Source: an uncultured Verrucomicrobia subdivision 3 bacterium (lineage in GTDB: Bacteria > Verrucomicrobiota > Verrucomicrobiia > Limisphaerales > UBA11358). Taken from it: a stretch of DNA of 34,861 nucleotides. Below, piece after piece: positions 5,552 through 27,441 of the stretch. Position numbers and translations under genes: made by a program. A model generated the notes under the pieces. The model saw only the letters and a program-made list of their open reading frames with translations, was not told where the DNA came from and ran no database searches. The stretch spans positions 1-34,861 of the forward strand of contig CAJAQO010000300.1 in assembly GCA_903944085.1 (NCBI GenBank), written 5' to 3'. Positions within the stretch are counted from its first letter, which is position 1, and each line of letters opens with the position of its first letter.

Positions 5552-7276
5552 ATGAACAACTCCAAAGGTAATGCCGGTCGGTTCGTTGCGGTCATCGTGG
5601 TTTGTTTGGTTCTGGCGCTGGCCGCCATTGCGATCAAAAAGCATATCACCAGTCCCGCTGCCGTAGCCCGACCACCGGTGCCTGCGCTCGCCGTAACACC
5701 GCCGATTGCCGCCGGCCACGATGATTTGTTTGAAGATGTCACTGCCAAGGCGGGCATCCATTTTGTCCATCAATTCTGTGATTCAAAAATCGCGAACATC
5801 CTTGAATCGAACGGCGCGGGCGGATGCTGGCTGGATTACGACGGCGACGGGCTGATGGATTTGTTCCTGGTGAATTCCGGCCCGCTCGACGGCGTCACGC
5901 ATCACACTCCCGGCACCGCCCGCCAGCCGAACCGACTTTATCGCAATCGCGGCGACGGCACGTTTGAGGACGTCACGGAAAAAGCCGGCTTGAGCGGCAT
6001 GGGCTATTGCACTTCCGCGGTCGCCGCCGATTATGACAACGATGGCCATACCGATCTTTATGTCGTTGGCGTGGGACGCTCTTATCTTTACCACAATCGC
6101 GGCGACGGCACGTTTGAAGACGTCACGGAAAAAGCCGGTGTCGCCAACCTCGGCGGCACGGGCCTCGGCGCGGTTTTTTTCGACGCAGACAACGACGGCA
6201 AGCTTGACCTCTTTGTTGCGAACTATCTTACCTTTGATCCGAACTACCAACTCTACTACAATCCCGACGCGTATCCCGGCCCGCTTTCCTACAAACCGCA
6301 ATTCAACAAACTCTATCATAACCGTGGCGATGGCACGTTCGAGGACGTCAGCAAATCTTCGGGCGTCGAAATTCCCGGACACCGCGCGATGTCCGTGGCC
6401 GTGTTCGACTACAATAACGACGGCGCGCCAGACCTTTATCTTTCCAACGACGGCACGCCGAATCTGCTGCTGGTTAATGACGGCAAAGGCCATTTCCAAG
6501 ACGTCGCGCCCCAAGCTGGTGTGGCTTTCAACGCGATGGGCGAGGCTGCCGGTTCCATGGCCGCCACCATCGGCGATTGCAATGGCGACGGGCAAGCGGA
6601 CATTCTCGTCACGCGCCTTGGCTACGGCTCGCTTTACATGGGCACGACCAACGGACTGTTTGATGATCGCATGATGGCGTCCGGACTGGGTTCGCTGACC
6701 GCGCAATTCGTCGGCTGGGGCGGGTGCTTTCTCGATTTCGACAACAGCGGCAAGCTCGACATTTTCATCGCCAACGGCGACCCGCATTATCTGGTCGGCT
6801 GGGAAAGTTTGCTGTTGGAAAATCGCGGCGACGGCACGTTCGCGGACGCGGCGAAGAAAGGCGGCGCGTATTTCACCACCAAGATTCGCGCCCGTGGCAG
6901 CGCGGTGGCCGACTTCGACAACGATGGCCGCATGGACATCGTCGTGACCACGATGGGCGACCGGCCGTTCCTGCTGCACAACCGCGACAAATCCGGCAAC
7001 CACTGGCTCACGCTCGACCTCGTCGGAACCAAAAGCAACCGTGATGGCTTCGGCGCAAAAGTGAAAGTGACTGCCGGCGGCAAAACGTATTTTGCCGAAG
7101 CACGTTGCGCGTTTGGTTTCCTCATGCAAAGCGACCGGCGCCTGCACTTCGGCTTGGGCAAGGCGACGACCGCAGACCGCATCGAAATCCAATGGCCGAG
7201 CAAACAGGTTCAGGAATTGAGCAACGTCAAAGCGGATCAAATCCTCAAAGTCACCGAACCCGGCGAGCGAAAGTAA
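5552..7276 (+). CDS. CRTAC1-family protein (FG-GAP repeats + ASPIC/UnbV)
   Basis: 574 residues. The N-terminus has one hydrophobic segment (about residues 10-27, VAVIVVCLVLALAAIAIKK) that acts as a signal anchor. Seven Asp-rich calcium-loop motifs follow: DYDGDGLMDLF, DYDNDGHTDLY, DADNDGKLDLF, DYNNDGAPDLY, DCNGDGQADIL, DFDNSGKLDIF and DFDNDGRMDIV. The pattern fits an FG-GAP/VCBS beta-propeller. The last 90 or so residues (NHWLTLDLVGTKSNRDGFGA to the end) are the ASPIC/UnbV domain. It is the first gene of a plus-strand run, and the next gene starts two bases after its stop. The family is secreted or surface exposed and has no established enzymatic activity. Its repeated pairing with cytochrome genes here suggests a partner role in an envelope complex, which is inference. 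Confidence 0.88.
   Translation: MNNSKGNAGRFVAVIVVCLVLALAAIAIKKHITSPAAVARPPVPALAVTPPIAAGHDDLFEDVTAKAGIHFVHQFCDSKIANILESNGAGGCWLDYDGDGLMDLFLVNSGPLDGVTHHTPGTARQPNRLYRNRGDGTFEDVTEKAGLSGMGYCTSAVAADYDNDGHTDLYVVGVGRSYLYHNRGDGTFEDVTEKAGVANLGGTGLGAVFFDADNDGKLDLFVANYLTFDPNYQLYYNPDAYPGPLSYKPQFNKLYHNRGDGTFEDVSKSSGVEIPGHRAMSVAVFDYNNDGAPDLYLSNDGTPNLLLVNDGKGHFQDVAPQAGVAFNAMGEAAGSMAATIGDCNGDGQADILVTRLGYGSLYMGTTNGLFDDRMMASGLGSLTAQFVGWGGCFLDFDNSGKLDIFIANGDPHYLVGWESLLLENRGDGTFADAAKKGGAYFTTKIRARGSAVADFDNDGRMDIVVTTMGDRPFLLHNRDKSGNHWLTLDLVGTKSNRDGFGAKVKVTAGGKTYFAEARCAFGFLMQSDRRLHFGLGKATTADRIEIQWPSKQVQELSNVKADQILKVTEPGERK
5945..6138 (+). repeat. Near-identical 44-base segment repeated at 150-base period
   Basis: Bases 5945-5988 and 6095-6138 match at every position except one (gag versus gaa in the Phe-Glu-Asp part). 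They lie exactly 150 bases (50 codons) apart inside the CRTAC1 gene. They encode the NRGDGTFEDVTEKAG blade linker. More diverged copies occur near 6318 and 6822. This suggests recent duplication or conversion of one propeller repeat. Confidence 0.75.
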
Positions 7277-7278
7277 AC

Positions 7279-8715
7279 GTGAAATCGGCCAGCCATTTTC
7301 AAATTTTCTTTTTGGTCGCCAGCCTGACTTTGCTGGCCGGAGCCGGTTGCCATAAACCTGTTCCGCGCGGATCGCTGATTCTGGCCCAATCGCCGGTGAA
7401 CGCCGCCGCCAACTCAGCCTCAGATGTCCTGGATTTAAAATATCCGCCCGGTAGCCGTGTCGTGTTGATGGAAACGCCGTTTGACCCGAACCGTGTTCGC
7501 GTGCTTTCAGAAAGTTTGGCTTCTGCTGGGGAGCCGATTGTTTCCTACGACGGCCAGCGCATTTTCTTCGCCGGCAAAACCAGCGCCGCGAGTGAATGGC
7601 AAATTTATCAGGAGGATTTGACGGATGCGCGTCTCACGAAATTGACTTCCGTGCCCGGTGGTGCGATGAACCCGGCTTTGCTTCCCGATGGGAGTTTGGT
7701 CTTTGCCTCGCCAGTGCCAAAACTTGGCGGCACAAATTTCAACCAGTCCCAGCCCGCGCTTTATGTTCAATCGCCCGGCGGCCAGCCACGCCAGTTGACT
7801 TTCAGCTCCCGCAGCATCACCGATCCAACCATGCTTTCGGACGGACGAATCCTGTTCGTTTCGACTTCGCCATCAAACTCGAATTCCGGCCCGGCACTGT
7901 TCACGATCAACAACGACGGCACGGAAGTCACCGCCTTCGCAAAACCGGAAGATGCCAACTCCAGCATTCAACAACCGCGGCTGCTCGCCGATGACCGTGT
8001 GGTTTTTCTAGTTTCAAAGTCCGGCGCAAACACAGCGGAAGTTGTCTGCCTGGCCCGGCCGTTCCAAAGCCGCGCACCGTTGTTCCCCGGTGTGACGGCG
8101 CAAATCGGTTCAGTGCAGCCGGCCGGCGATGGCGATTTGCTGGTTTGCGCCGGAAATACGGCCGGCAACAAGCCTTCACAGGCGCTGTTCCGTGTTAGTT
8201 CGAACACAACAAATTTGGGCACGCCGCTGCTGGTTGATCCGGCCTGGAATATTTCCGAAGCCGTCGAAGTGGCTCCCCATCTTCAGCCGATGGGCCGGCT
8301 TTCGACGATGGACGTCACGAAAACAACTGGAAAAATTCTTTGTCTCGACGCGAATTTTTCCAGCGACCGCACGAGTGGAACAATGCCTCCGGCCAGCCGT
8401 GTCCGCGTGCTCGTGGAGACGTCACCTGGAAAGGTTCATGCGCTCGGCGAAGTGCCGGTTCAGGCGGACGGCTCGTTCCTGGCAGAAGTGCCAGCCGATG
8501 TGCCGCTCGGTTTCGAGTCGCTCGATGAAAGTGGTCATGTCTTGCACCAGGAAGCCCCGATGCTTTGGTTGCGGCCGGCTGAAAACCGCTCCTGCATCGG
8601 CTGCCACGAACCGAGGAACCGCGCGCCGCACAATCATCGTCCGCTGGCTGTGAGCGAGCCCGTGATACAACTCACGTTGAAAGAAGCCGGTTCGGCATCG
8701 AGGAAATCCAACTGA
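7279..8715 (+). CDS. HzsA-like (hydrazine synthase alpha-type) beta-propeller protein with one c-type haem motif
   Basis: 478 residues from a GTG start two bases after the previous stop. Longer in-frame starts lie inside the upstream gene and lack a signal peptide, whereas this one gives FFLVASLTLLAGAGC, a signal sequence with an imperfect lipobox. Residues about 60-330 carry PD40/TolB-like propeller repeats (for example GQRIFFAGKTSAASEWQIYQ, LLPDGSLVFASP, LSDGRILFVS). The C-terminal part (RVRVLVETSPG, then VQADGSFLAEVPADVP and APMLWLRPAENR) resembles the middle domain of the hydrazine synthase alpha subunit. It ends in one CXXCH haem site (CIGCH, residues 439-443). Such domains occur widely outside anammox bacteria, so this is not evidence for hydrazine synthesis. 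A periplasmic redox role with the next gene, which it overlaps by one base, is likely. Confidence 0.78.
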   Translation: MKSASHFQIFFLVASLTLLAGAGCHKPVPRGSLILAQSPVNAAANSASDVLDLKYPPGSRVVLMETPFDPNRVRVLSESLASAGEPIVSYDGQRIFFAGKTSAASEWQIYQEDLTDARLTKLTSVPGGAMNPALLPDGSLVFASPVPKLGGTNFNQSQPALYVQSPGGQPRQLTFSSRSITDPTMLSDGRILFVSTSPSNSNSGPALFTINNDGTEVTAFAKPEDANSSIQQPRLLADDRVVFLVSKSGANTAEVVCLARPFQSRAPLFPGVTAQIGSVQPAGDGDLLVCAGNTAGNKPSQALFRVSSNTTNLGTPLLVDPAWNISEAVEVAPHLQPMGRLSTMDVTKTTGKILCLDANFSSDRTSGTMPPASRVRVLVETSPGKVHALGEVPVQADGSFLAEVPADVPLGFESLDESGHVLHQEAPMLWLRPAENRSCIGCHEPRNRAPHNHRPLAVSEPVIQLTLKEAGSASRKSN

Positions 8716-10664
8716 TGAAAAAACGAGCATTCATCCTCCTGTTGATTTTAGTATGTTTTGCCAGCGTGGCGCTGTGGCTGAGGCAGAATTACTGGATTGA
8801 CCATATGCGCCAAATGTCCGGCCAAAAGTCACTCGCGAACGTCAGTTGTTTCAACTGCCATCTTGTCTCCACCGCCAAGCTGCGCTGGGCGCAACCCCGG
8901 CCGCATCATGACGCGCCGGCGGGAATGGCGATTTCGCCGGATGGGAAGAAAATTTACATCGCCCTCGACGACCGTGATGAAGTGGCCGAGGCGGATACGA
9001 CATCACGACAGGTCTTGCGCCGAGTCAAAGTAGCGGGCAGGCCGTTTGGATTGGCGATTGATGCCGCTGGGAAAAATCTTTTTGTGACTTGCCGAAACAC
9101 CGACCGGCTGGCGGTGCTGGACACGCAAACACTTCAGGAAACGGGATCAATCGCTGTCGGCATGGCACCGGTGGCCGTGGCGTTTTGCCGCACCGCCGCT
9201 GGTGATCGCCTCGTGGTAGCCAACTCCATGTCGGACGATATTTCAGTGCTTTCTGTTTCCCCATTGCAGGAATTGGGCCGGCCATCGGCGGGCCGCGAGC
9301 CGTTTGCCGTGGCGATCACGCCGGACGGAACTCGTGCGTTCGTCGCCAACCGCATGGTCCGGCTCGTTTCGGTCAAAACCATTCCCACGTCGGAAGTCAC
9401 CGAGATTGATCCCATGACCGCGCGCACGGTGCGCCGTGAAGCGCTGGAATCGGCGCACCAATCCGAAGGCATCTGCGCCGTGCCGTCACGTTCGTGGATG
9501 CTGACGCCGCTGGTCAAGGTGCGCAATCTCGTCCCCATCACGCAAGTGGCGAACGGCTGGGTGATGTCGAGCGGCTTGGCGATCACCGATGTGAAATCCG
9601 GCAACGTCATTCAAATGCCGCTCGATGAGGCGAATAATTATTTTGCCGATCCGTCGGGCGTCGTGGTGGATTCGTCCGGCCATCGCGCCTTTGTCGCGTC
9701 CGGCGGCGGCGACGTGGTGACCGTGGTGGATTTGGATCGCATGGCTGCGTGGCTGGATAAAGCTGACCCGACGACAAAGCAGGAAGCGATTTATGACATG
9801 TCGCTTTCGCCCGCATACGTCACCGCCCGCATTCCCACGCAACGCAATCCACATCAACTTACCCTTAGCCCGGACGGCGGCACGTTGTTTGTCGCGGAGC
9901 GATTGGCGGACAGTGTCCTCGTGGTTGACGCAAACAATCTAACTGAAAAGGGCCGGATTATCCTGGGCGATGGCGGGTTAAATGATCCGATCCGGCGCGG
10001 CGAGAGAGTTTTCACGAAAGCAGCTTACACTTTTCAGCACCAATTTTCCTGCCGCTCTTGTCATCCCGACGGCCACGTGGACGGGCTGAGTTATGATTTC
10101 GACACGAGCGGCATCGGCGACAACCTGCTCGACAATCGCAGCCTGCTCGGCGTGGCCGGCACCGAGCCGTTCAAGTGGAATGGAAAAAATGCGAGCCTCG
10201 AAATTCAGTGCGGCCCACGCTTTGCCAAAGTGCTGATGCGCACTGATCCCATACCGCAAAAAGAACTGTTGGACCTGACGACGTTCATCAAATCGCAGCC
10301 GCCGCAGCGCGTCACGCGGAATGAGGACGGCACGTTGACGCCATCGCAGGAACGCGGCAAGGCGATTTTCTTTGCCACCAAGACCAAGAATGGCACAGAA
10401 ATTCCGCACGAAAAACGCTGTGCGAGCTGCCATCGTCCGCCGCTTTATTCGGTGCGATTGTCGTTTGACGTCGGCACCGGAGGCACATTTGATACGCCAC
10501 ATCTGCTCGGTGTCGCTAACACCGCACCGTATCTGCATGATGGCCGCGCGTTGTCGCTGGAAGAAATCTGGACGCTTTACAGCACCAACGACTCACATGG
10601 CGTGACCAGTTACATGAACAAAATCCAGCTCAACGACCTGGTTGAATTTCTGAAAACCCTCTGA
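8715..10664 (+). CDS. YVTN beta-propeller / MauG-like c-type cytochrome, three CXXCH motifs
   Basis: 649 residues. The start overlaps the previous stop by one base (TGATG) and has a GAGGAAA ribosome site. An N-terminal membrane segment (about residues 4-22) anchors it with the bulk in the periplasm. The first haem motif is CFNCH at residues 45-49. About residues 65-430 form a YVTN-type beta-propeller (GMAISPDGKKIYIALDDRDE, PFAVAITPDGTRAFVANRM, HQLTLSPDGGTLFVAERLA). The C-terminal part carries CRSCH (446-450) and CASCH (569-573). It also carries the TPHLLGVANTAPYLHDGRA segment typical of dihaem cytochrome c peroxidase/MauG proteins. That family reduces peroxide or oxidises protein residues and other donors at a high-valent haem. 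The propeller fusion suggests a dedicated substrate or partner surface. Its substrate is unknown. Confidence 0.85.
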   Translation: MKKRAFILLLILVCFASVALWLRQNYWIDHMRQMSGQKSLANVSCFNCHLVSTAKLRWAQPRPHHDAPAGMAISPDGKKIYIALDDRDEVAEADTTSRQVLRRVKVAGRPFGLAIDAAGKNLFVTCRNTDRLAVLDTQTLQETGSIAVGMAPVAVAFCRTAAGDRLVVANSMSDDISVLSVSPLQELGRPSAGREPFAVAITPDGTRAFVANRMVRLVSVKTIPTSEVTEIDPMTARTVRREALESAHQSEGICAVPSRSWMLTPLVKVRNLVPITQVANGWVMSSGLAITDVKSGNVIQMPLDEANNYFADPSGVVVDSSGHRAFVASGGGDVVTVVDLDRMAAWLDKADPTTKQEAIYDMSLSPAYVTARIPTQRNPHQLTLSPDGGTLFVAERLADSVLVVDANNLTEKGRIILGDGGLNDPIRRGERVFTKAAYTFQHQFSCRSCHPDGHVDGLSYDFDTSGIGDNLLDNRSLLGVAGTEPFKWNGKNASLEIQCGPRFAKVLMRTDPIPQKELLDLTTFIKSQPPQRVTRNEDGTLTPSQERGKAIFFATKTKNGTEIPHEKRCASCHRPPLYSVRLSFDVGTGGTFDTPHLLGVANTAPYLHDGRALSLEEIWTLYSTNDSHGVTSYMNKIQLNDLVEFLKTL

Positions 10665-10667
10665 ATC

Positions 10668-10674
10668 GAAAGGA
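10668..10674 (+). promoter_or_regulatory. Ribosome binding site of the Reg_prop gene
   Basis: GAAAGGA lies nine bases before the ATG at 10684. The whole initiation region (about 26 bases) is nearly identical to that of the RidA-family gene at 11854, which makes both start choices firm. Confidence 0.7.
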
Positions 10675-10683
10675 ACACATATT

Positions 10684-11826
10684 ATGAAAACCATGTTGAA
10701 TTCTCTGACGCTCGCGACGGGAATAGCGCTGCTGTTTTCCCTTTCTGGCACACCCGATGTTCGCGCTGCGGAAACGGCGACGAATGATTTGCCTCTGCCG
10801 TTTCCGTTGATCGAACGATTTGAAAATTTCCATGTGCAGGACGGAATGCCCACGCACAAGGTTCACTGCGTGTTGCGGGCGAGCGACGACAAACTCTGGG
10901 TGGGCACTTACGACGGCGCGTTGGTGCGCGAGGATGGGAAGTTCCGCCGCATCGGCGTCGAGGACGGCCTGAGCCACAAAATGGTTTTGTGCATGGTGGA
11001 GGACAAACGCACCGGCGACATGTGGATCGGCACCATGCGCGGGCTGAATCGTTACAGCGCCGGCCGTGTCACCACCTATCTGCAAACCGATAGCGGCCTG
11101 CCGAATAATGTGATCTATGGCCTGGGCATCGTGGACGACACGCTCTGGGTGGCTACCGCCGCGGGTCTGGGAGTGTTGAATCTGAAAACCGGCGAATGGA
11201 CCATTTACGATCACACCAACACCACCATGCACGAGCCGTGGGTGTATTCGGTGGCGGGCGCGAACGGCCGCGTTTTCGTGGGCGTCTGGGGCAGCGGCAT
11301 TCTCGAATACGATCTGACCCGCAAGATTTTTACGGAATACCGCGATCCCGACCGCGACTTTCATTTCGAACTCGTGCATGACGCCGGCCCAATCAACGAC
11401 GTCACCTCTTGGGTGGCGTGGGATGAAGGCATTCTCTGGCAATCAACTTATTTTGGCATGTCGCGCTATGACGGCTCGCGCTGGCGCACTTGGGAGGAGA
11501 AAAAATCGCCGCTCGTTTCCAACTTCATCAACTTCATCTGGGCCCATGGCCGCGTGGCTTGGGTGGGCACGGATCGCGGCGTTTCCGTGACCGACGGCGA
11601 CACGTGGGTCACTTATCGCGCCAATGAAAATGGCGAAGGCCTCGCTGAAATCACGCGTCCGGGCCAGCCGGTCGAGACGCGGACGATGGCAACGAAACTG
11701 CCGAATGATTTCGTGCTCGGCATTTGGGCAGACGACCAGGAAGCCTGGTTCGCCACCTCCGACGGGCTGGGGCACGCAAATTTTGCCGCCTCGCCGAAAT
11801 CCGCCAAAGTTGCGACTGCCAAATAA
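10684..11826 (+). CDS. Exported two-component-regulator-type propeller (Reg_prop) protein without a signalling domain
   Basis: 380 residues with a signal peptide cleaved near VRA-AET (residue about 29). The rest is a series of Reg_prop blades: KLWVGTYDGALVRED, DMWIGTMRGLNRYSAG, TLWVATAAGLGVLNLKTGEW, RVAWVGTDRGVSVTDG and EAWFATSDGLGHANFA. In hybrid histidine kinases of Bacteroidetes such propellers form the periplasmic sensor. Here the protein stops after the propeller, with no membrane helix or kinase, so it is a stand-alone periplasmic propeller. It sits 19 bases after the cytochrome gene and before a RidA gene, clearly in the same transcription unit. It may be a binding or scaffold partner of the propeller cytochromes upstream, or a lytic-enzyme-like propeller. 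No catalytic motif can be assigned. Confidence 0.78.
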   Translation: MKTMLNSLTLATGIALLFSLSGTPDVRAAETATNDLPLPFPLIERFENFHVQDGMPTHKVHCVLRASDDKLWVGTYDGALVREDGKFRRIGVEDGLSHKMVLCMVEDKRTGDMWIGTMRGLNRYSAGRVTTYLQTDSGLPNNVIYGLGIVDDTLWVATAAGLGVLNLKTGEWTIYDHTNTTMHEPWVYSVAGANGRVFVGVWGSGILEYDLTRKIFTEYRDPDRDFHFELVHDAGPINDVTSWVAWDEGILWQSTYFGMSRYDGSRWRTWEEKKSPLVSNFINFIWAHGRVAWVGTDRGVSVTDGDTWVTYRANENGEGLAEITRPGQPVETRTMATKLPNDFVLGIWADDQEAWFATSDGLGHANFAASPKSAKVATAK

Positions 11827-11837
11827 CCGTCATCCAA

Positions 11838-11844
11838 GAAAGGA
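11838..11844 (+). promoter_or_regulatory. Ribosome binding site of the RidA-family gene
   Basis: GAAAGGA lies nine bases before the ATG at 11854. Compared with the site at 10668, the shared segment through AAAACCA differs at only three positions. Confidence 0.7.
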
Positions 11845-11853
11845 CCTGATATT

Positions 11854-12435
11854 ATGAAAACCAACTTCATTATTCCCGGCAGTCAACTGGATCGCGTCAT
11901 CAACTATTCCGACGCGGAAAAAATCCAACGCCGCGCGCTCGGCCTGCCCGCGTGCGAACCCGCGCCCGCCAGCCTCATCAAACAACTGCCAAAGCACCGG
12001 AAAGTGGTCAGCAAAAAAGCCATCACCGAGCCGAAGGTCTTGAACGAAGCGAAGGAATACGGCGCGGCCTTCGTGCGCGGCCTGCGCGTGGATCTGACTG
12101 GCGGCGTAACGCAACTGCTTTTCAGCGGCACCGCCAGCATCGGGCCTGACGGTGAAACACTTTACCCTGGCGATTTTCGCGCCCAGCTCTGGCGCACTTT
12201 TTACAACCTCACCGGGCTACTCGCGAGCGAAGGCGCCACCTGGCACGACATGGTTCGCACCACCTGCTACATCCGTGACATCGAGCGCGACTACGGCGAA
12301 TTCAATTCCATCCGCAACGAATTTTTCCACGCGCTGGGGCTGGACCCGTTCCCCGCCAGCACCGGCATCCAAGCCCGGCTCTGCCGGAGCGATCTGCTCG
12401 TCGAAATCGAAGCCATTGCCATGCTCATAAAATAG
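11854..12435 (+). CDS. RidA (YjgF/YER057c/UK114) family protein with N-terminal extension
   Basis: 193 residues, longer than the usual 125-130 of RidA. About the first 65 residues are an extra, poorly recognisable N-terminal segment. The rest fits the family: LLFSGTASIGPDGETL, then NLTGLLASEGATWHDMVRTT, and near the end STGIQARLCRSDLLVEIEAI. RidA proteins are small trimeric enzymes that hydrolyse reactive imines/enamines. The conserved Arg (in QAR) and Glu (in EIEA) of active RidA appear to be present. There is no signal peptide, so it is probably cytoplasmic and an outlier among exported neighbours. It starts 27 bases after the propeller gene, and the next gene's Shine-Dalgarno site overlaps its stop codon. 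A role in clearing a reactive nitrogenous product of this operon is possible but is inference. Confidence 0.85.
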   Translation: MKTNFIIPGSQLDRVINYSDAEKIQRRALGLPACEPAPASLIKQLPKHRKVVSKKAITEPKVLNEAKEYGAAFVRGLRVDLTGGVTQLLFSGTASIGPDGETLYPGDFRAQLWRTFYNLTGLLASEGATWHDMVRTTCYIRDIERDYGEFNSIRNEFFHALGLDPFPASTGIQARLCRSDLLVEIEAIAMLIK

Positions 12436-12439
12436 GAGG
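12434..12439 (+). promoter_or_regulatory. Strong Shine-Dalgarno overlapping the RidA stop codon
   Basis: AGGAGG starts inside the TAG stop of the RidA-family gene and lies five bases before the ATG at 12445. It is the strongest ribosome site in the operon and implies translational coupling and high expression of the binding protein that follows. Confidence 0.75.
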
Positions 12440-12444
12440 TCAGC

Positions 12445-13812
12445 ATGAAAAAAATATTTCTGATTTTGACCGGAATGCTAGCGCTTGTGCCCGCCGGCTG
12501 GTGCGGCTATGAGGAAAAAGAGGAGACCAGCATCAACACGAACTTCATTGCCGAACCGATTTCGCCGCAGTGCGCGCCGGCGGCGCAAGCACCGGCGGGC
12601 GACTATCCGTATTACGGAAACGCGCCGGATGAACTGCTACCCTACCGCAACATCAAGCCATTCTACCAATACTGGCTGACGCGCCTGCCGTTTCGCGGAC
12701 CGGGCAAGGATTATCCCGATCCAATCGGCCTGAAAACACTTCGGATCGGCCTGCTCAGTCCGCCGCCTTACGGCCCGGAATCGGTTCGAGGCGAGATGAG
12801 CAAGAAAGGCGTGATGCTGGCGATCGAAGAGGCCAACGCCGCGCGCCAGCCCAGCGAGCTGCCGTTCGAGGTCATCGAAAAAGTTGACTCGCCGCAATGG
12901 GGCAGCGCCGCGAACATCGCCGTGGAGTTTGCCGACACCAACGCGCTCGCTTTCATCGGCACGATTGACGGCGACGCCACGCACGTTGCGCTCCGCGCCA
13001 CACTTAAAACCGAGATTTACATGGTGAACTGTTCCGATCCCGATCCCTCCCTGACCGAAACGCAAATCCCTTGGTTGATTCGCAATTTCCCGGACAACCG
13101 CCAGCAAGGTTATCTGCTCGCCCGGCTGATCGTGGAGGAACGCGGCCTGACCAAAATAGTTGTGTTTCGCGCCAACAGCCGTCCCGGCCGCGTGGGCGTT
13201 CGGCCCTTCGTGGATGCCGTGCGCCGGCTCGGTCATCCGGTGTTGCAGGAAATTAATTTCAAGGACGGCGACCGCACGTTCGACACGCAGGTGGCCGTCA
13301 TCAAACAGGCGAATCCGGAAGCCGTGGTCTTCTGGGGCAATCCCGCCGAAACCGGTCCCGCCGCGGCGCAACTGCGGGCGGCGGGCGTGAAGGCCGCGTT
13401 CTATGGCTTTGACCGGCTGGTGGACCCGGATTTCATCAAACTCGCCGGCCCGGCGGTGGCGGAAGGCGCGACTGCCGCCTACCCTTTCGACTTGGAAAAA
13501 ACCGACCCGGCGTGGACGAATTTTGTCGCGCGTTTCGAAAAACGTTACGGCATGAAGCCAGACATTTATGCCGGTTATGCCTACGACGGCACGCAGATGC
13601 TCGTCACCGCCATCAAGAAAGCCGGGCCGAACCGCTACCGGATTCGCGATCTGATGGCCGCCATTGACGAATACACCGGGGTGTGCGGTTACATGCGCTT
13701 CGACGGCCGCTGGGACAACATCGCGCCGATTGTTTACGCCCAATTCTTGCAAGGCCGCTGGCATTTCACGCCCGCGCCGAAATTGAAGCCGGTCAAGACC
13801 GCCGCGAAGTAA
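12445..13812 (+). CDS. Periplasmic binding protein, branched-chain amino acid/amide type (Peripla_BP_6)
   Basis: 455 residues. A signal peptide (IFLILTGMLALVPAGWCG) is followed by an unusual region of about 90 residues rich in Pro and Tyr. A type I periplasmic binding fold starts at about residue 97 (TLRIGLLSPPPYGPESVRGE, GVMLAIEEANA). Further family features are ALAFIGTIDGDATHVAL, a second-lobe segment RLIVEERGLTKIVVFRA, and the C-terminal YAYDGTQMLVTAIKKAG. Such proteins deliver amino acids, amides or aromatic acids to LivFGHM-type transporters, or sense them. No permease or ATPase gene is present nearby, and a second binding protein follows directly, which favours sensing or an enzyme-accessory role. 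The substrate cannot be read from the sequence. Confidence 0.85.
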   Translation: MKKIFLILTGMLALVPAGWCGYEEKEETSINTNFIAEPISPQCAPAAQAPAGDYPYYGNAPDELLPYRNIKPFYQYWLTRLPFRGPGKDYPDPIGLKTLRIGLLSPPPYGPESVRGEMSKKGVMLAIEEANAARQPSELPFEVIEKVDSPQWGSAANIAVEFADTNALAFIGTIDGDATHVALRATLKTEIYMVNCSDPDPSLTETQIPWLIRNFPDNRQQGYLLARLIVEERGLTKIVVFRANSRPGRVGVRPFVDAVRRLGHPVLQEINFKDGDRTFDTQVAVIKQANPEAVVFWGNPAETGPAAAQLRAAGVKAAFYGFDRLVDPDFIKLAGPAVAEGATAAYPFDLEKTDPAWTNFVARFEKRYGMKPDIYAGYAYDGTQMLVTAIKKAGPNRYRIRDLMAAIDEYTGVCGYMRFDGRWDNIAPIVYAQFLQGRWHFTPAPKLKPVKTAAK

Positions 13813-13815
13813 AAC

Positions 13816-14922
13816 ATGTCTTTCAATGCGCGCCCAGCCGTGATCGCCTTCACCGTGATGACGATTGTGGCATGCTTGCACGCGGGCGAAACGAGCCAGG
13901 AAAATACCAATCTCGTCATCGGCCTGCTTGTGCCGCCGGAGGAACCTTCGGCCGCCAGTCTGCGCGACGGGGCAACGCTCGGGGTCGAACAAGCCAATCA
14001 ATCCACCGGAACACATGTCAGCCTGGTCATTCGCGGTCGCGCCGGCCAATGGGGCGCGGACGGCGTGGAAGCCGCGCGGATGGTCACCGACGACGGCGCA
14101 CTGGGCTTGATTGCACCACCGGACGGCGCGGCGACGCATCTGGTATTGCAGGTCTCCGGCCGCACGGCGGTGCCAGTAATTTCCCTGTGCGCCGACTCTT
14201 CTGTCAGCCAAACCGGCGTGCCTTGGATGGTGCGTATCGTTCCGCGCACGGTTGATGAGGCGAAGATTCTTTTCGCCGGAATTCATGCCAGCCATTGGAT
14301 CGCCGTGATTCCAGACGGTCGCGCCGGACGCGAGGTGGCCCGTGATCTCAAGGAAGCCGCGACCAACAATGGTTGCGTCATTGAGAAAATGATTGAAGTG
14401 AATTTGTCATTCACAAATACAGCGCGGCTCTGCAAACAAATTCTCGCTAACCAGCCCGATGCCGTTTTGCTCTGGTTGGATGCGGCCAACGCCGGCAAGC
14501 TGGCGAAAGCACTGCGAGCAGCGGGTTTCACCGGCACATTTGCCGGACCCAGCCGGCTGCAGGCGGCGGAGTTTGCGGGAGCGGCGGGCGACGCCATGGA
14601 GGGATTGCAGGTGCCTGGTCCGATCTTCGAGAAAGATGTCATGACTGTCTTTCAAAATTTTACCAGCACGTTTCGCACGCGCTTCGGCCATGAACCGGAC
14701 CCGACGGCGGCGGCGGCTTGCGACGCCGCCGCGTTGTTGATTCACGTCCTGAGACAAACCGGTGACCGTCCGGCGCATGAAGCTTTTCCACTCCGTTTTT
14801 CGCTGGGCGGCGCGACCGGAATTTTGGCCTTTGATTCGCAAGGAAACCGGAAGTTAAAACTTCAGTTGCTTGAAGCCCACGGCGGTCAGTTTGTTCCCAA
14901 CGCGCCGAAAGCGAACCCATAG
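13816..14922 (+). CDS. Second periplasmic binding protein (LivK-like, Peripla_BP_6)
   Basis: 368 residues, starting three bases after the stop of the first binding protein. The N-terminus (AVIAFTVMTIVACLHAG) is a signal sequence in which IVAC could serve as a lipobox. The fold follows: NLVIGLLVPPEEPSAASLRD, ATLGVEQANQ, GALGLIAPPDGAATHLVL, PVISLCADSSVSQTGVPWMV and QPDAVLLWLDAANAGKLAKA. It is related to the upstream protein in fold but clearly diverged and shorter, so the pair is an old duplication or two different ligand specificities. No transporter membrane or ATPase subunit is encoded in the window. The stop codon overlaps the ribosome-site region of the next gene. Confidence 0.83.
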   Translation: MSFNARPAVIAFTVMTIVACLHAGETSQENTNLVIGLLVPPEEPSAASLRDGATLGVEQANQSTGTHVSLVIRGRAGQWGADGVEAARMVTDDGALGLIAPPDGAATHLVLQVSGRTAVPVISLCADSSVSQTGVPWMVRIVPRTVDEAKILFAGIHASHWIAVIPDGRAGREVARDLKEAATNNGCVIEKMIEVNLSFTNTARLCKQILANQPDAVLLWLDAANAGKLAKALRAAGFTGTFAGPSRLQAAEFAGAAGDAMEGLQVPGPIFEKDVMTVFQNFTSTFRTRFGHEPDPTAAAACDAAALLIHVLRQTGDRPAHEAFPLRFSLGGATGILAFDSQGNRKLKLQLLEAHGGQFVPNAPKANP

Positions 14923-14925
14923 GAA
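14922..14925 (+). promoter_or_regulatory. Ribosome site that decides the start at 14935
   Basis: GGAA lies nine bases before the ATG at 14935. The alternative ATG at 14926 directly abuts this sequence and has no ribosome site of its own, so the downstream ATG is preferred. Confidence 0.5.
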
Positions 14926-14934
14926 ATGAGAAAC

Positions 14935-15495
14935 ATGAACCATATCAAGATGCCCGAAGTCTTTGTTAAATTCACGCTGGGCGGAATGCTGGTCCTGGCC
15001 GCGACCAGTTGCCAACAAGAACCCCCGGTGACAAGCCTGCCGCAAGCACCCGCAGTGACGTTCAAACCGCAGGAGCTGGCCGACGCCCTCCATGCCGTGA
15101 TTGCCGCCGATCAAAAAACCTATGCGCTGCCTGGAGACGAAACTCTCTTGGCACATCACGCTCAAAAATTGCGTGCGGCCGCCGAATTCGTTCAGCAGGA
15201 AGGTGCCGAATTCCATTACGTGCTGCGGTCGCTCTGGCCGATCAATTCAAAAGATGCGCCCGAAACCGACACGGAAAAAACCGGGCTGCAATACGTCCTT
15301 GAGCATCCCGGCACCAACTACTATGGCGGGGAATCGCTCGGCGGCCGGCGTTATTTCACCGCCGTTTATGGCGAGAAAGCCACCGTCAATGCCTGCACCG
15401 ACTGTCACAACCGGAACCCGGACAGTCCGAAGAAAGATTTCAAAATGGGCGACGTGATGGGCGGCCTGGTGGTGCGCGTGCCGCTGGAATTTTGA
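14935..15495 (+). CDS. Tll0287-like (DUF3365) haem lipoprotein
   Basis: 186 residues from the ATG preferred on ribosome-site grounds; a start at 14926 would add three. The N-terminus ends in a lipobox (LVLAATSC), so it is probably a lipoprotein. The central part (FVQQEGAEFHYVLRSLWPIN, then GESLGGRRYFTAVYGEKATV) and a single haem motif CTDCH (residues 154-158) match the Tll0287-like/DUF3365 fold. The segment GDVMGGLVVRVPL closes the domain. The founding member is a haem protein with a PAS-like fold thought to sense redox state or ligands. Placed after two binding proteins and before a membrane protein, it could be the redox input or a shuttle of the operon. That role is inference. Confidence 0.8.
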   Translation: MNHIKMPEVFVKFTLGGMLVLAATSCQQEPPVTSLPQAPAVTFKPQELADALHAVIAADQKTYALPGDETLLAHHAQKLRAAAEFVQQEGAEFHYVLRSLWPINSKDAPETDTEKTGLQYVLEHPGTNYYGGESLGGRRYFTAVYGEKATVNACTDCHNRNPDSPKKDFKMGDVMGGLVVRVPLEF

Positions 15496-15513
15496 TGAAG
15501 CAAAAAATATTTT

Positions 15514-15542
15514 TGCCGACCGAAGAAAAAATTTCGGCGGCA
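15514..15542 (+). promoter_or_regulatory. Imperfect hairpin between the haem lipoprotein and membrane protein genes
   Basis: TGCCGACCGAA pairs with TTCGGCGGCA around an A-rich loop, with one bulged A. No T-run follows, so it is not a standard terminator. In the longest gap of the operon (73 bases) it could stabilise or process the transcript, or partly attenuate the last gene. Confidence 0.3.
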
Positions 15543-15568
15543 GAACCGAACCTCAACCTGGTTAACCA

Positions 15569-16033
15569 ATGAATCCTCTTACCGCCGCGCATTTTCACCT
15601 CGCCCTGTGCCACGTGCCAATCATGGCCATATTATTTGGGATGGGCTGGCTGGCATTCGGCGTTTGGCGCCGAAGCCTGGACATCCAGAAGGCCGCGTTG
15701 AGCATGTTCGTTTTAGCCGGAGTTCTGGCCGTGCCGTTATATTTGACGGGCGGAACGGCGGCGGGCGTGGTCAAAGGCTTGCCGGGATTTTCCGACCACA
15801 TTCTGGAGCAGCATCAGGCGGCCGCAGGCGTGACGTTGGCAGGTTGCATCGTGATTGGAATTGCGGCGCTGGCGGGATTGCTTGTCTTCCGGGGCCGGAT
15901 TATCGCCAACTGGTTTGGCATATTGTTGCTGGCGGCCGCGCTGGTAGTAGGCGGCCTCGTGACATGGACCGCCAATCTCGGCGGGCAAATCCGCCATTCG
16001 GAAATCCGCGCTTACGATGCTCAGACCGATTAG
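15569..16033 (+). CDS. Four-helix membrane protein, DUF2231-like
   Basis: 154 residues with four predicted membrane helices at about 12-30, 42-60, 85-107 and 112-135. Histidines sit near the first and third helices (HFHLALCHVP, SDHILEQHQ), a pattern seen in DUF2231-type small membrane proteins that may bind haem or metal. It ends the plus-strand operon, and its stop is 12 bases from the stop of the convergent CRTAC1 gene. The start ATG has no clear Shine-Dalgarno site. With the haem proteins upstream, a membrane redox component that links to quinones is possible. The family has no firm function and the assignment rests on topology and a few motifs. Confidence 0.7.
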   Translation: MNPLTAAHFHLALCHVPIMAILFGMGWLAFGVWRRSLDIQKAALSMFVLAGVLAVPLYLTGGTAAGVVKGLPGFSDHILEQHQAAAGVTLAGCIVIGIAALAGLLVFRGRIIANWFGILLLAAALVVGGLVTWTANLGGQIRHSEIRAYDAQTD

Positions 16034-16045
16034 TTGACGGCAAAG

Positions 16046-17902
16046 CTACGGAGTTTCCGTCACGGTCATTGGCTGGTCTATTTGGACTTTTTCCAACTTC
16101 TGGAGTGTTCCGTTCGGCCAGTTGATTTCAACACTCTCCACCTTGACCGCATTGCCCAAGCCAATGGTGACGGGCAGTTCGGATTGCGAAAGATAGCTGC
16201 GCGTGGGCATTACTTGACGCGACAAAGTCTGGCCATTCACGCGGACCGTAATCCACGCGCCGATGGCGTCACGATTGCTTTTTGTGCCGACGAGTTTCAG
16301 GCGAATCCAGTGGTGATGTAAATTCTGGTCGTTGCGCAACAGGAGCGGCGGACGACCAACTTGCGTCAAGACGACATCAAGATCGCCGTCGCCATCAATG
16401 TCGGCAAACGCCGAACCGCGTCCGACAATCGGCTTGAACAAATCCGCACCGGCTTTCTCCGGCGGCACCGCCACGAAGCAGCCGCCGCTGCGCTCACCCG
16501 CGTTCCAAAACAATTGCGCAGGCTGCTCATATTTTTGGCTCTTTTGAATTTTGCTGATCTCCTCCTCCAAATGTCCGTTGGCCGTGAGCAAATCCAGCCG
16601 GCCATCCAGATCGTAATCAAAAAAGAACACGCCGAATTTGAGCAGTAACCGGCTCGCCGGACCGACGCCTTCGGTGATGGCTTCATCGCTGAAAATGGTC
16701 GGCGAATTTTGCGCGACGTAAAGCGCCGTCATTTCATTGGCAAAATTTCCGATGGCGATGCCGAGTTTGCCATCGTTGCGATAGCGCGCCGTGTCAATGC
16801 CCATCGCGCCGCGCGTGTTGCCGTAGTTATCGAACGCGATGCCGGACTGCGCGCCGATTTCCTTGAACGTGCCGTCATGCTGATTGATAAAAACCAGATT
16901 GGGCACGGTGTCGTTGGCTAAAATCAGATCAATCCAGCCGTCGCCATTCAGATCCACCGGCGCGACTCCGAGAGTTTTCGCGGCCGGAACACCGGTCGCT
17001 GGATTTTTCACCTGCAAGCCGCTCTTGGCCGAGACGTCACTGAAATGTCCGTTGCCATCGTTGTGGTAAAGATGCGAAAACGCACCGGCGAAATTCATCG
17101 GCTGACCGTAGGCGCGCGTGCGACCATCAATCTTGTAACCGACTTCCGCGTCAATTTCCTTCGACCATTGCACATAGCTGCCGACAAAAAGATCAAGCTT
17201 GCCGTCGTTGTCATAATCAATGAACGCGGCGCAGGTGCTCCAATCATTGGTCGCACCGCCAACGCCGGATTCAAGCGTGACTTCGTGAAATTTTCCGTGC
17301 CCGTCGTTGTGAAAAAGATGATTGCCACCGACAGCCGTGATGAATACATCGTCGAAACCGTCGTTGTCATAATCGCCAATCGCCACGCCCATGCCGTAGA
17401 AACTCACATCCAGCCCGGAACCCGCGGTCACATCGGTGAAATGACCATGCCCGTCGTTGTGATACAGCCCCATCGTGGGCATTGGCTTTCCAGCCGGCAC
17501 GTGACCCGGCCAGTAAGTCGAATTGACGAAAAGCAAATCCTGCGCGCCATCGTTGTCGTAGTCAAAAAACGCCACGCCGCCGCCCATCGTTTCCGGCAAC
17601 AGTTTTTCACCGTAAGCCCCGTTGACGTGCGTGAACGTGATGCCAGCCTCCTTGGTGATGTCCGTGAATTTCGCCTCGGGCACTTCCGCCTGCGGCAGCA
17701 CAGGCGAAACGGGCGCGTTGAGTTTTGTCATTTGCGGCGCGGCGGCGGCAGGTTTGCGCTTCAGGATAAAAACCGCGCCACCGAACAAAACAGCGATGAT
17801 TATCAGCGCGACCAGCGACCAGCGAAAGGCGTTGCCGATGAGTCGGTCGTCATAATGAACCAACTCTTCGTCGTCGTCGGGCAGAGGAGAATTTTTGGGC
17901 AT
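16046..17902 (-). CDS. CRTAC1-family protein (FG-GAP + ASPIC/UnbV), paralogue of the 24322 gene
   Basis: 618 residues. An N-terminal cytoplasmic tail with Asp/Glu (DDDEELVHYDD) leads to one membrane segment (about residues 29-47, SLVALIIIAVLFGGAVFIL), so it is an anchored rather than freely secreted protein. The body has Asp-rich loops (DYDNDGAQDLLF, DYDNDGFDDVF, DYDNDGKLDLF, DLNGDGWIDLI, DYDLDGRLDLL, DIDGDGDLDVV). A C-terminal ASPIC/UnbV domain (WIRLKLVGTKSNRDAIGAW onward) follows. By eye most positions after residue 75 are identical to the product of 24322-26064. It follows the multihaem cytochrome gene by three bases, so the two are co-translated and probably function together at the inner membrane/periplasm face. 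Confidence 0.88.
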   Translation of the reverse strand: MPKNSPLPDDDEELVHYDDRLIGNAFRWSLVALIIIAVLFGGAVFILKRKPAAAAPQMTKLNAPVSPVLPQAEVPEAKFTDITKEAGITFTHVNGAYGEKLLPETMGGGVAFFDYDNDGAQDLLFVNSTYWPGHVPAGKPMPTMGLYHNDGHGHFTDVTAGSGLDVSFYGMGVAIGDYDNDGFDDVFITAVGGNHLFHNDGHGKFHEVTLESGVGGATNDWSTCAAFIDYDNDGKLDLFVGSYVQWSKEIDAEVGYKIDGRTRAYGQPMNFAGAFSHLYHNDGNGHFSDVSAKSGLQVKNPATGVPAAKTLGVAPVDLNGDGWIDLILANDTVPNLVFINQHDGTFKEIGAQSGIAFDNYGNTRGAMGIDTARYRNDGKLGIAIGNFANEMTALYVAQNSPTIFSDEAITEGVGPASRLLLKFGVFFFDYDLDGRLDLLTANGHLEEEISKIQKSQKYEQPAQLFWNAGERSGGCFVAVPPEKAGADLFKPIVGRGSAFADIDGDGDLDVVLTQVGRPPLLLRNDQNLHHHWIRLKLVGTKSNRDAIGAWITVRVNGQTLSRQVMPTRSYLSQSELPVTIGLGNAVKVESVEINWPNGTLQKLEKVQIDQPMTVTETP

Positions 17903-17905
17903 AGG

Positions 17906-20791: not shown

Positions 20792-20813
20792 GAACCGGAG
20801 GAATTGTCAGCGG

Positions 20814-22277: not shown

Positions 22278-22301
22278 GGGTTCAATAAATTGTGGGCGAA
22301 C

Positions 22302-22331
22302 ATTGACTGGCTGATTATTGACTGGCTGATT
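22302..22331. repeat. Perfect tandem duplication of a 15-base unit upstream of the porin gene
   Basis: ATTGACTGGCTGATT occurs twice with no spacer (22302-22316 and 22317-22331). It lies 25-54 bases upstream of the porin ATG and downstream of the response regulator gene, where a promoter or leader would sit. LytTR-domain regulators bind paired direct repeats, but usually with a period near 21-22 bases, so this could be a binding site or simple slippage. If the longer porin frame were translated it would read as NQPVN twice. Confidence 0.55.
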
Positions 22332-22429
22332 TTTGTCGGAGGCGTGACAATAAAAGTTTGTATCACTAGTCACCAATCTTTATGGGGCGTTCGGACGAAA
22401 TTCAGGGGCAAACGGTCCGGCCGGAAAAA

Positions 22430-23191
22430 TCAGTCCAAGCCACACTGCTTCAATTTGTCGCGGTAACGGCGGCTCGAGGTCAGTTTCGTGCCGTCCTGGA
22501 GCACCAATTCGTAGCCGCCGTAAAACAACCGGTGCAGTTCCTTGACGCGTTGGACGTTGACGATAATCGAGCGGCTGATGCGGACAAATTTTTCCGGGTC
22601 GAGCCGCGACTCCAGCGCGCCCAGAGTTTCCCGCAGCAAGTGCGATTTTGCGCCGACGTGCAGTTCGGCGTAATTATCCGCCGATCCGATCCAGTCAATT
22701 TCATCCAGCCGCACCCAAACGACGCTGCCGCCTGATTTCACCGCCAGCCGTTCGGGGGTTTTGGGCGACTTCAACTCGGCGATCAACGCCGCTTGGCGTT
22801 CCACGATGGCGCTGCCTTCGGACTGTTTCACCCGCTCGACCGCGCGGCGCAGAGCTTTTTGAAACCGTTCGCGGTCGAAGGGTTTTAATAAATAATCCAC
22901 GGCATGAACTTCAAAAGCGCGCAGGGCAAATTTATCGTGCGCGGTGACAAATACGATCACCGGCTTGGTGCCGGCGCCAACGGCTTCCGCCACTCCGAAA
23001 CCATCCAGCTCCGGCATTTGCACATCCAAAAAAACCAGGTCGGGTGACTGCTCCTGAATGGTCGTGACCGCCGTGCGACCATCCGAACATTCGCCGATGA
23101 TCTCAATCTCCGCCTCGGTTTGCAGCAACTGGCGCATCCGGTCGCGCGCCAGCAATTCATCATCCACGATCAGGGTGCGAATTTTTTTCAT
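22430..23191 (-). CDS. LytTR-family response regulator
   Basis: 253 residues. The receiver domain (residues 1-120) has the acidic pocket D10/D11, the phosphoacceptor D56 (VFLDVQMPELDG), T83 and K103 (DYLLKPFDRERF). After a short linker, residues about 148-250 form a LytTR DNA-binding domain (VWVRLDEIDWIGSADNYAEL, FVRISRSIIVNVQRVKELHR, LTSSRRYRDKLKQ). Its ATG overlaps the stop of the histidine kinase gene by four bases (ATGA), so the pair is translationally coupled. The porin gene lies 152 bases downstream on the same strand and is the obvious candidate target. All catalytic residues needed for phosphorylation are present. Confidence 0.93.
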   Translation of the reverse strand: MKKIRTLIVDDELLARDRMRQLLQTEAEIEIIGECSDGRTAVTTIQEQSPDLVFLDVQMPELDGFGVAEAVGAGTKPVIVFVTAHDKFALRAFEVHAVDYLLKPFDRERFQKALRRAVERVKQSEGSAIVERQAALIAELKSPKTPERLAVKSGGSVVWVRLDEIDWIGSADNYAELHVGAKSHLLRETLGALESRLDPEKFVRISRSIIVNVQRVKELHRLFYGGYELVLQDGTKLTSSRRYRDKLKQCGLD

Positions 23192-24270
23192 TGGGATTTC
23201 TCCGCAGTTTGAAAGGGAATCGTCACGCGCACGCGCAATCCGCCTTCGGGACGATTGCTCAACTCAAAGCGGTGCGCCGCGCCGTAGAGCGTCCGCAACC
23301 GCGCGCGGGTGTTGGACAGGCCGACGCCTTCGTCGAGCGCGTTCGCGTCGCTCACGCCCGCGCCGTTGTCGCTCACATCCAGCGTGAGTTCGCCGTTGGC
23401 GCGTTGCGCGCGCAACTCGATGATGCCGGGTTTGGCGTGCGGTTCGACGCCGTGACGAATGGCGTTTTCCAGCAACGGCTGCAAAATCAAGTTCGGCACG
23501 CGGGCATCCAACAGGTTCGGTGGAATTTGCGTTTGCACGGTCAGCCGGTTCCCAAAACGGATCTGTTCAATTTCCAAATAGCTTTGGAGAAATTTCAATT
23601 CGGCGCGCAGCGTCACTTCCTGCGCGTCGGAATTTTCCAGCGCGGCCCGCAGCAGATCGCTCAAGCGCACAATCATCCGGTCGGCGGCCTCGACATTTTG
23701 GTGCATCAGCGCGGAAATCGAGTGCAGGCTGTTGAACAGAAAATGCGGGTTCAACTGCATCTGGAGCGCCTGCAATTTTGCCTGTGCGAGACTTTTTTCC
23801 AGTTCCGCCGCGCGCAGTTCGCGTTCGCGGAATTTTCCGTAATAGTCGAAAGCAAAACTGACGGCGACGATCACCCAATAGATCAGCAGGTTGAAATGCC
23901 AGGTCTTCACCAGCAGCGGTTGGAAGGCTTCCGCAAAGCTCGCATCGCTTTGCCAGCGCCCGATGAACGCGCGCAGCACCATGTAGGCCAGCGAAAAAAT
24001 CAGACTGCAAGGCAGGTGCACCGCCAGACTCCGGGCGCGTTTGCCGGACTCGAACTGAAATCGCCCCGCCAGCCAAACGACCGGAATGGACAGGAGCGCG
24101 AACACATACCAGTCGCCCAGCGCAAAGCTTACCGCCTGTTTCCAAGTGACATCCAAGCCCGCCTTGGCGCTGGAAATGTAAAACTGAAACGCGAAGGACA
24201 GCCCGATCAGCGTCCAAAACGCAAAGCCCAGCGGCCATTTGATCCAGCGTCGTTGCAGGACTTTGTTCAT
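23188..24270 (-). CDS. LytS-type membrane sensor histidine kinase (HisKA_7TM-less, His_kinase/HATPase)
   Basis: 360 residues. Four hydrophobic segments (about 12-34, 48-68, 84-104 and 124-143) form a short membrane domain with little periplasmic loop. It therefore probably senses a membrane or intramembrane signal. A coiled linker (ELRAAELEKSLAQAKLQAL) leads to the His_kinase motif NPHFLFNSLH with the phosphorylated H176. The ATPase domain has the N box (LILQPLLENAIRHGV), the G1 box (DVSDNGAG) and the G2 region (GVGLSNTRARL). It is divergent from the CRTAC1 gene at 24322, with 51 bases between the two starts. Its partner is the overlapping LytTR regulator. Confidence 0.92.
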   Translation of the reverse strand: MNKVLQRRWIKWPLGFAFWTLIGLSFAFQFYISSAKAGLDVTWKQAVSFALGDWYVFALLSIPVVWLAGRFQFESGKRARSLAVHLPCSLIFSLAYMVLRAFIGRWQSDASFAEAFQPLLVKTWHFNLLIYWVIVAVSFAFDYYGKFRERELRAAELEKSLAQAKLQALQMQLNPHFLFNSLHSISALMHQNVEAADRMIVRLSDLLRAALENSDAQEVTLRAELKFLQSYLEIEQIRFGNRLTVQTQIPPNLLDARVPNLILQPLLENAIRHGVEPHAKPGIIELRAQRANGELTLDVSDNGAGVSDANALDEGVGLSNTRARLRTLYGAAHRFELSNRPEGGLRVRVTIPFQTAEKSQ

Positions 24271-26064: not shown

Positions 26065-26112
26065 CGTTTTTACGAGATTGAAATTCCCAATCAAACCGAC
26101 GAAAATCCGGCT

Positions 26113-27432: not shown

Positions 27433-27441
27433 GCTCCGACT

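Follow-up and report, generated by a model that had tools for sequence, protein, structure and literature searches.

What do nine tightly packed genes of an uncultured Verrucomicrobia subdivision 3 bacterium do together? The genes, here called B to J (Table 1), lie at 5552-16033 of a 34,861-nucleotide stretch of DNA (GCA_903944085.1, contig CAJAQO010000300.1, positions 1 to 34,861; the window) as nine open reading frames in the same orientation. A first-pass annotation made from the sequence had described them as an envelope redox or sensing operon that matched no described pathway, and had offered as one reading the oxidation or sensing of a nitrogen-containing compound, with a RidA protein dealing with a reactive imine product. 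We find that the block belongs to a recently described family of hydrazine-synthase homologues whose core is known and to which no function has been assigned. To this family the present work adds a conserved set of components and a testable link to chorismate.

Two genes of the block encode homologues of hydrazine synthase

The first-pass annotation had recognised C as an HzsA-like protein with haem, and this was borne out. Among solved structures C matched the alpha subunit of hydrazine synthase, the HzsABC complex of anaerobic ammonium oxidation (anammox) (5c2v_A, 3.7e-12). The predicted structure of C (mean predicted local distance difference test score 87.7) had the same subunit as its top match (5c2v_D, Z 33.8 over 425 of 480 residues), with TolB propellers behind at Z 27. 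C carries a lipobox and consists of a propeller and a middle domain, with its sole CxxCH at residues 441-445. D is a second hydrazine-synthase homologue, which had been overlooked; C and D thus make up an alpha plus beta-gamma pair. D matched both the beta (5c2v_B, 1.2e-31) and the gamma (5c2v_C, 1e-13) subunits, and the model of its propeller matched 5c2v_B best (Z 43.6, 341 residues, root-mean-square deviation 2.2), other propellers reaching Z 37 or less. From its N-terminus D comprises an anchor helix, an extra c-haem, a 7-bladed propeller and a MauG-type dihaem domain, with CxxCH motifs at 45, 446 and 569. Two other assignments of D were rejected: the match to the PQQ-ABC system model TIGR03866 came only from the YVTN repeats and, at 77.6 bits, stayed under the cut-off of 287, and that to L-NosZ (NF052460) was weak and confined to the propeller.

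C and D are therefore firmly identified as homologues of hydrazine synthase. They share with the anammox enzyme the alpha propeller and middle haem domain, the beta propeller and the gamma dihaem domain. The window differs in that the alpha-like gene precedes the beta-gamma-like gene, and in the addition of a CRTAC1 protein and binding proteins.

The block is of clade III type and is conserved across two phyla

Hydrazine-synthase homologues have been divided into clades I-IV (Hagglund et al. 2025, PMC12758564), and hzsA-like genes together with fused hzsBC-like genes have been reported from Phycisphaerae (Suarez et al. 2023, PMC10732223). In clade III, as described in PMC12758564, CRTAC1 lies upstream of alpha, beta and gamma are fused, two substrate-binding proteins follow downstream, the second alpha haem is missing and beta-gamma has one extra haem motif. 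The window has the same order of CRTAC1, alpha and beta-gamma and two binding proteins downstream; C has haem alphaI only and D has one extra haem motif. The claim that no pathway with this set had been described thus fails for the core, which is published as clade III, and stands for its function, which the paper does not give. The available part of the text does not mention Reg_prop (E), Tll0287 (I), J, a chorismatase-like gene or DAHP synthase, and the main text contains neither RidA nor any word beginning Verrucomicrobi. We found no paper linking CRTAC1 with Acidobacteriota and a cytochrome.

Scanning genome contigs with D yielded 28 related loci, and about 1,100 further genomes yielded more. 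After removal of duplicates, 62 distinct loci with a close D homologue remained, from Verrucomicrobiota and Acidobacteriota. Most of these genomes were assembled from metagenomes, and mis-binning may affect some of them. D served as the bait, so all counts are conditional on it, and each count uses only contigs that reach far enough. C was beside the D homologue in 57/57 testable loci, B was present in 56/56 and E in 57/59. At least one binding protein was found in 53/54 loci and two in 47/51. F occurred in 25 of 51 loci (27 of 51 when a two-domain form is included), I in 11/29 and J in 6/17. Since these partners recur among the 62 distinct loci, the block is not a chance neighbourhood, and the tabulation of co-occurrence that had been proposed supports one conserved envelope redox unit that is not confined to a single genome. 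Within the window's own genus, 3 of the 36 genomes searched held a close copy, which points to loss or transfer of the block. Granulicella sp. L46, whose record is not a metagenome-assembled genome, carries the system.

In a tree of D homologues the groups differed from one another in gene order and in the number of haem motifs. The group of the window begins with CRTAC1 and has three motifs, a second begins with alpha and has two, and a third, in which alpha mostly comes first, has up to six or ten. Judged by these two features the groups correspond to the published clades I-III, and many clade-I-like members have ten haem motifs in their D homologue. In the clade-I-like clusters L078 (5429-6310), L100, L101 and L104, a gene for a C_GCAxxG_C_C redox protein lies between two binding-protein genes. 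In the complete 3.2 Mb genome containing L079 (G079:C1:585000-604900), which is of the same class, an HzsBC-like gene adjoins a long two-haem HzsA-like gene; several sampled genomes similar to that of L079 also have the HzsBC-like gene.

Residues for hydrazine synthesis are missing from C and D

In hydrazine synthase, which forms hydrazine from NO and ammonium, the ligand of haem alphaI is Tyr591 and zinc is bound by His587 (PMC12607021). Tyrosine was found at the position four residues after the histidine of the alpha haem motif in 0/26 C orthologues. The second alpha haem (alphaII) domain is also absent, C ending about 35 residues past its only CxxCH. Residues of D were related to those of gamma by counting by hand on the alignment of D with 5c2v_C; in the enzyme, gamma-His144 and gamma-Asp168 lie near haem gammaI. 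By this count the position of gamma-His144 is Trp in 24/24 D sequences (Trp488 in the window), and that of gamma-Asp168 is Phe or Thr in the 24 sequences (Phe503 in the window). Cys499 occupies the position of gamma-Cys165, the third haem link; most clade III members retain it as a feature shared with the anammox enzyme, and others have lost it. H628 is invariant and aligns with the position counted as gamma-332, which we take to be the distal ligand of haem gammaII.

An active hydrazine synthase was rejected on these grounds: with Tyr591, the second alpha haem, gamma-His144 and gamma-Asp168 all gone, their sequences make hydrazine synthesis by the C-D pair unlikely. For clades I-III, PMC12758564 reaches the same conclusion. 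The earlier proposal that the operon oxidises a nitrogen compound is weakened by the same losses. Elsewhere in the window's genome an octahaem cytochrome of the hydroxylamine oxidoreductase (HAO) fold, 410 residues long, is encoded (G000:C17:41691-42239; L083 5506-6735); its nearest match was 4qo5 (5.9e-31), and hydrazine dehydrogenase was far weaker (8e-13).

F resembles chorismatases rather than RidA deaminases

F had been taken for a RidA protein that handles an imine. It does share the Rid fold with RidA deaminases, but Arg105, which is required for imine hydrolysis by RidA (PMC4433059), is replaced by Ser in 14/14 F orthologues. Around 10% of RidA proteins have Ser at this position (PMC4433059). 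F also scored 48.5 bits against the RidA model TIGR00004, below the cut-off of 106.25. The assignment as an imine deaminase was dropped on the loss of Arg105. Chorismatases turn chorismate into pyruvate and either a hydroxybenzoate or DHCHC. F has the SGTAS-type motif of the chorismatases Hyg5 and FkbO (TIGR04444; 5ag3, 4bps) and shares the exact string CRSDLLVEIE with Hyg5. Glu334 of this string is indispensable to Hyg5, whose class is marked by the Cys (PMC7170507); the corresponding Cys177 and Glu184 of F are invariant in 14/14 orthologues. Because the Glu is also common to RidA, the Cys and SGTAS carry the distinction between the two families. We call F chorismatase-like, and not a chorismatase, since its scores reach neither the chorismatase nor the RidA cut-off. 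Distant relatives of F have the two-domain layout of FkbO and Hyg5, and three of them scored 48-68 bits against TIGR04444.

Chorismate is a precursor of aromatic compounds, and 3-deoxy-D-arabinoheptulosonate 7-phosphate (DAHP) synthase catalyses the first step toward it. An extra DAHP synthase gene was present, in varying positions, in 14 related clusters, all from genomes that their label or sample assigns to Acidobacteriota. Of the clusters with the DAHP synthase gene, 13/14 also have F or its two-domain form, compared to 14/32 without it (Fisher p 0.0027, a significance that relatedness inflates). The three genomes checked each have several DAHP synthase genes. Chorismatase-like genes were also found 9-177 bases from distant HzsBC-like genes (~30% identity) in 13/46 loci, in the two-domain form where the frame was read; one of these two-domain genes had Hyg5 and FkbO as its best matches in the PDB. 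Each of the three clades in the tree of D has F or the two-domain form, which suggests that the link between F and D is old. We found no paper that connects hydrazine synthase to any of chorismatase, RidA and DAHP synthase. Genes for siroheme-dependent haem synthesis were neighbours of a two-domain chorismatase-like gene, an HzsBC-like gene and long HzsA-like genes at two loci, L071 (4293-17824; AhbAB, AhbC, AhbD-like) and L073 (siroheme-decarboxylase-like).

Organisation of the block and its surroundings

The gaps from B to J are -4, -1, 19, 27, 9, 3, 3 and 73 bases. C starts at GTG 7273 and overlaps B by 4 bases; the tight packing noted earlier is thus confirmed, with a minimum of -4 in place of -1. 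The order B-C-D-E-F-G-H, assigned by Pfam and NCBIfam, is alike in the relatives compared. The previous count of nine plus-strand genes, four with propellers (B, C, D and E) and three with c-haem motifs, agreed with the open reading frames, the domain matches and the CxxCH motifs (one in C, three in D and one in I). The N-terminus of B is a membrane helix or lipobox. J matched no credible Pfam family, even at E up to 10, and scans for promoters and terminators gave signals close to the shuffle background.

Table 1. Genes of the block and candidate regulators in the window
Gene	Coordinates	Strand	Assignment
B	5552..7276	+	CRTAC1 family; FG-GAP propeller PF13517 (5.9e-57), UnbV_ASPIC PF07593 (5.7e-21)
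C	7273..8715	+	Hydrazine synthase alpha-like lipoprotein; HZS_alpha PF18582 (3.5e-16), PD40
D	8715..10664	+	Membrane-anchored hydrazine synthase beta-gamma fusion-like protein; NF052342 (7.7e-51); YVTN, dihaem
E	10684..11826	+	Secreted Reg_prop propeller protein; PF07494 (1.4e-8)
F	11854..12435	+	Chorismatase-like Rid-fold (L-PSP) protein; signal peptide not seen
G	12445..13812	+	Periplasmic binding protein, Peripla_BP_6; PF13458 (5.1e-39)
H	13816..14922	+	Second periplasmic binding protein, Peripla_BP_6; PF13458 (3.5e-28)
I	14926..15495	+	Tll0287-like c-haem lipoprotein, accessory; PF11845 (7.4e-15); CTDCH at 157
J	15569..16033	+	Small membrane protein, accessory; candidate b-haem protein with invariant His 10, 15, 82 and 143
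N, O	22430..24270	-	LytTR response regulator and histidine kinase, candidate regulators

The solved relatives of G are binding proteins of the LivJ/LivK type. H was nearest to 4ey3 (1.9e-7) and also near 3ukj; we take 4ey3 to hold an aromatic acid. No importer permease or ATPase genes lie beside G and H in the window, and BPD_transp_2 permeases were found only on contigs C155 and C198.

One or both of N and O also adjoin the operon in L010, L081, L082 and L100. They belong to a minus-strand row at 16046-24270 that comprises CRTAC1, a five-haem c554/TPR protein, an Alginate_exp barrel, the LytTR regulator and the histidine kinase. In this row a barrel of the outer-membrane type adjoins a multihaem cytochrome, and parts of it recur near the operon in L010, L082 and L100. 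A plus-strand row follows at 24322-29957, with CRTAC1, asparagine-synthase-like, radical SAM and tryptophan-halogenase-like genes; L013 likewise pairs CRTAC1 and asparagine-synthase-like genes. At 30119-34849 the minus strand encodes a 1576-residue protein with PATR repeats, likely an autotransporter passenger.

Discussion

We propose that the block encodes an anchored multihaem oxidoreductase that works with a chorismate-derived small molecule. The homology to hydrazine synthase is firm and the substrate is inferred; to the proposal as a whole we give a probability of roughly 0.4. C and D would form a two-site complex like that of hydrazine synthase, located in the periplasm or on the periplasmic side of the inner membrane. 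Electrons would be exchanged between the MauG-type dihaem site of D and the quinone pool, which would be reached through J and I or through the additional N-terminal haem of D; their path would include the three haems of D, together with I and J in those loci that have them. C would provide a second haem site, as in hydrazine synthase, and the four histidines of J could bind haem b. F, apparently cytoplasmic, would make a chorismate-derived acid, aided in many Acidobacteriota by a dedicated DAHP synthase, and G and H would capture the product outside. The small molecule, most likely a hydroxybenzoate-type aromatic acid, might serve as substrate, mediator or signal.

Several observations weigh against this proposal. 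None of the genes in the block is an obvious exporter or modifying enzyme for an aromatic acid. F scored 26.7 bits against TIGR04444, whose cut-off is 325, and has one Rid domain where chorismatases have two. It is missing near about half of the clusters (25/51 have it), and so is either not an absolute requirement or has a substitute somewhere else in the genome. The link to DAHP synthase was seen only in Acidobacteriota, whose relatedness inflates its p value. Finally, the model of the dihaem domain of D is of low confidence, and what is said of that domain therefore rests on the alignment to 5c2v_C.

The dihaem domain also invites a comparison with MauG and bacterial cytochrome c peroxidase (CCP), in which D would use peroxide or oxygen on a partner protein or substrate, C would be a structural haem partner and F a housekeeping protein. 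D shares with these enzymes a dihaem c-type domain with a conserved Trp: Trp488, at the gamma-His144 position, is invariant as in CCP and MauG, and D matches the CCP_MauG Pfam family and the MauG and MbnH models. In D, however, the dihaem domain shares its polypeptide with a YVTN propeller, and the protein pairs with an alpha-like haem protein, a partner that known CCP and MauG systems do not have. H628 is invariant at the gamma-332 position, where CCP presumably has its Met ligand and MauG its Tyr, and Cys499 is kept in most clade III members. We regard this explanation as somewhat doubtful. A sensory role, in which the binding proteins, the Reg_prop and CRTAC1 propellers and the haem proteins signal through the nearby LytTR two-component system, would suit Reg_prop, which is usually a sensor domain, and the LytTR and histidine kinase genes near the operon in several loci. 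The kinase and regulator nevertheless lie outside the conserved core, and the ten haem motifs in many clade-I-like D homologues suggest bulk electron transfer, making such a role quite unlikely. Even less probable is a true nitrogen-active enzyme, with nitric oxide, hydroxylamine or ammonia chemistry at the hydrazine-synthase-like sites. It would be consistent with the hydrazine-synthase fold of C and D, the pairing of their genes and their two-site architecture, and with the octahaem HAO-fold cytochrome encoded elsewhere in the genome, but the alpha-haem Tyr, the second alpha haem, gamma-His144 and gamma-Asp168 are lost, and PMC12758564 likewise argues against it for clades I-III.

Returning to the chorismate-linked oxidoreductase, the block may thus represent a redox system of a new kind and not one of the nitrogen cycle. 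A broader extension, which we consider unlikely as yet, is that a widespread envelope redox enzyme built on the hydrazine-synthase scaffold uses a chorismate-derived aromatic acid, supplied by the chorismatase-like enzyme of the operon together with a dedicated DAHP synthase, and that periplasmic binding proteins of the same system bind this acid. In that case hydrazine synthase would be a derived branch of a larger family in which small aromatic molecules took part in the ancestral chemistry. Since Granulicella sp. L46 has the system, genetics may be possible. Matches to hzs-like genes in genomes of Verrucomicrobiota and Acidobacteriota should not be taken as anammox. Hydrazine synthase is the key enzyme of anammox, and the conserved partners of its homologues offer a testable clue to the ancestral function.

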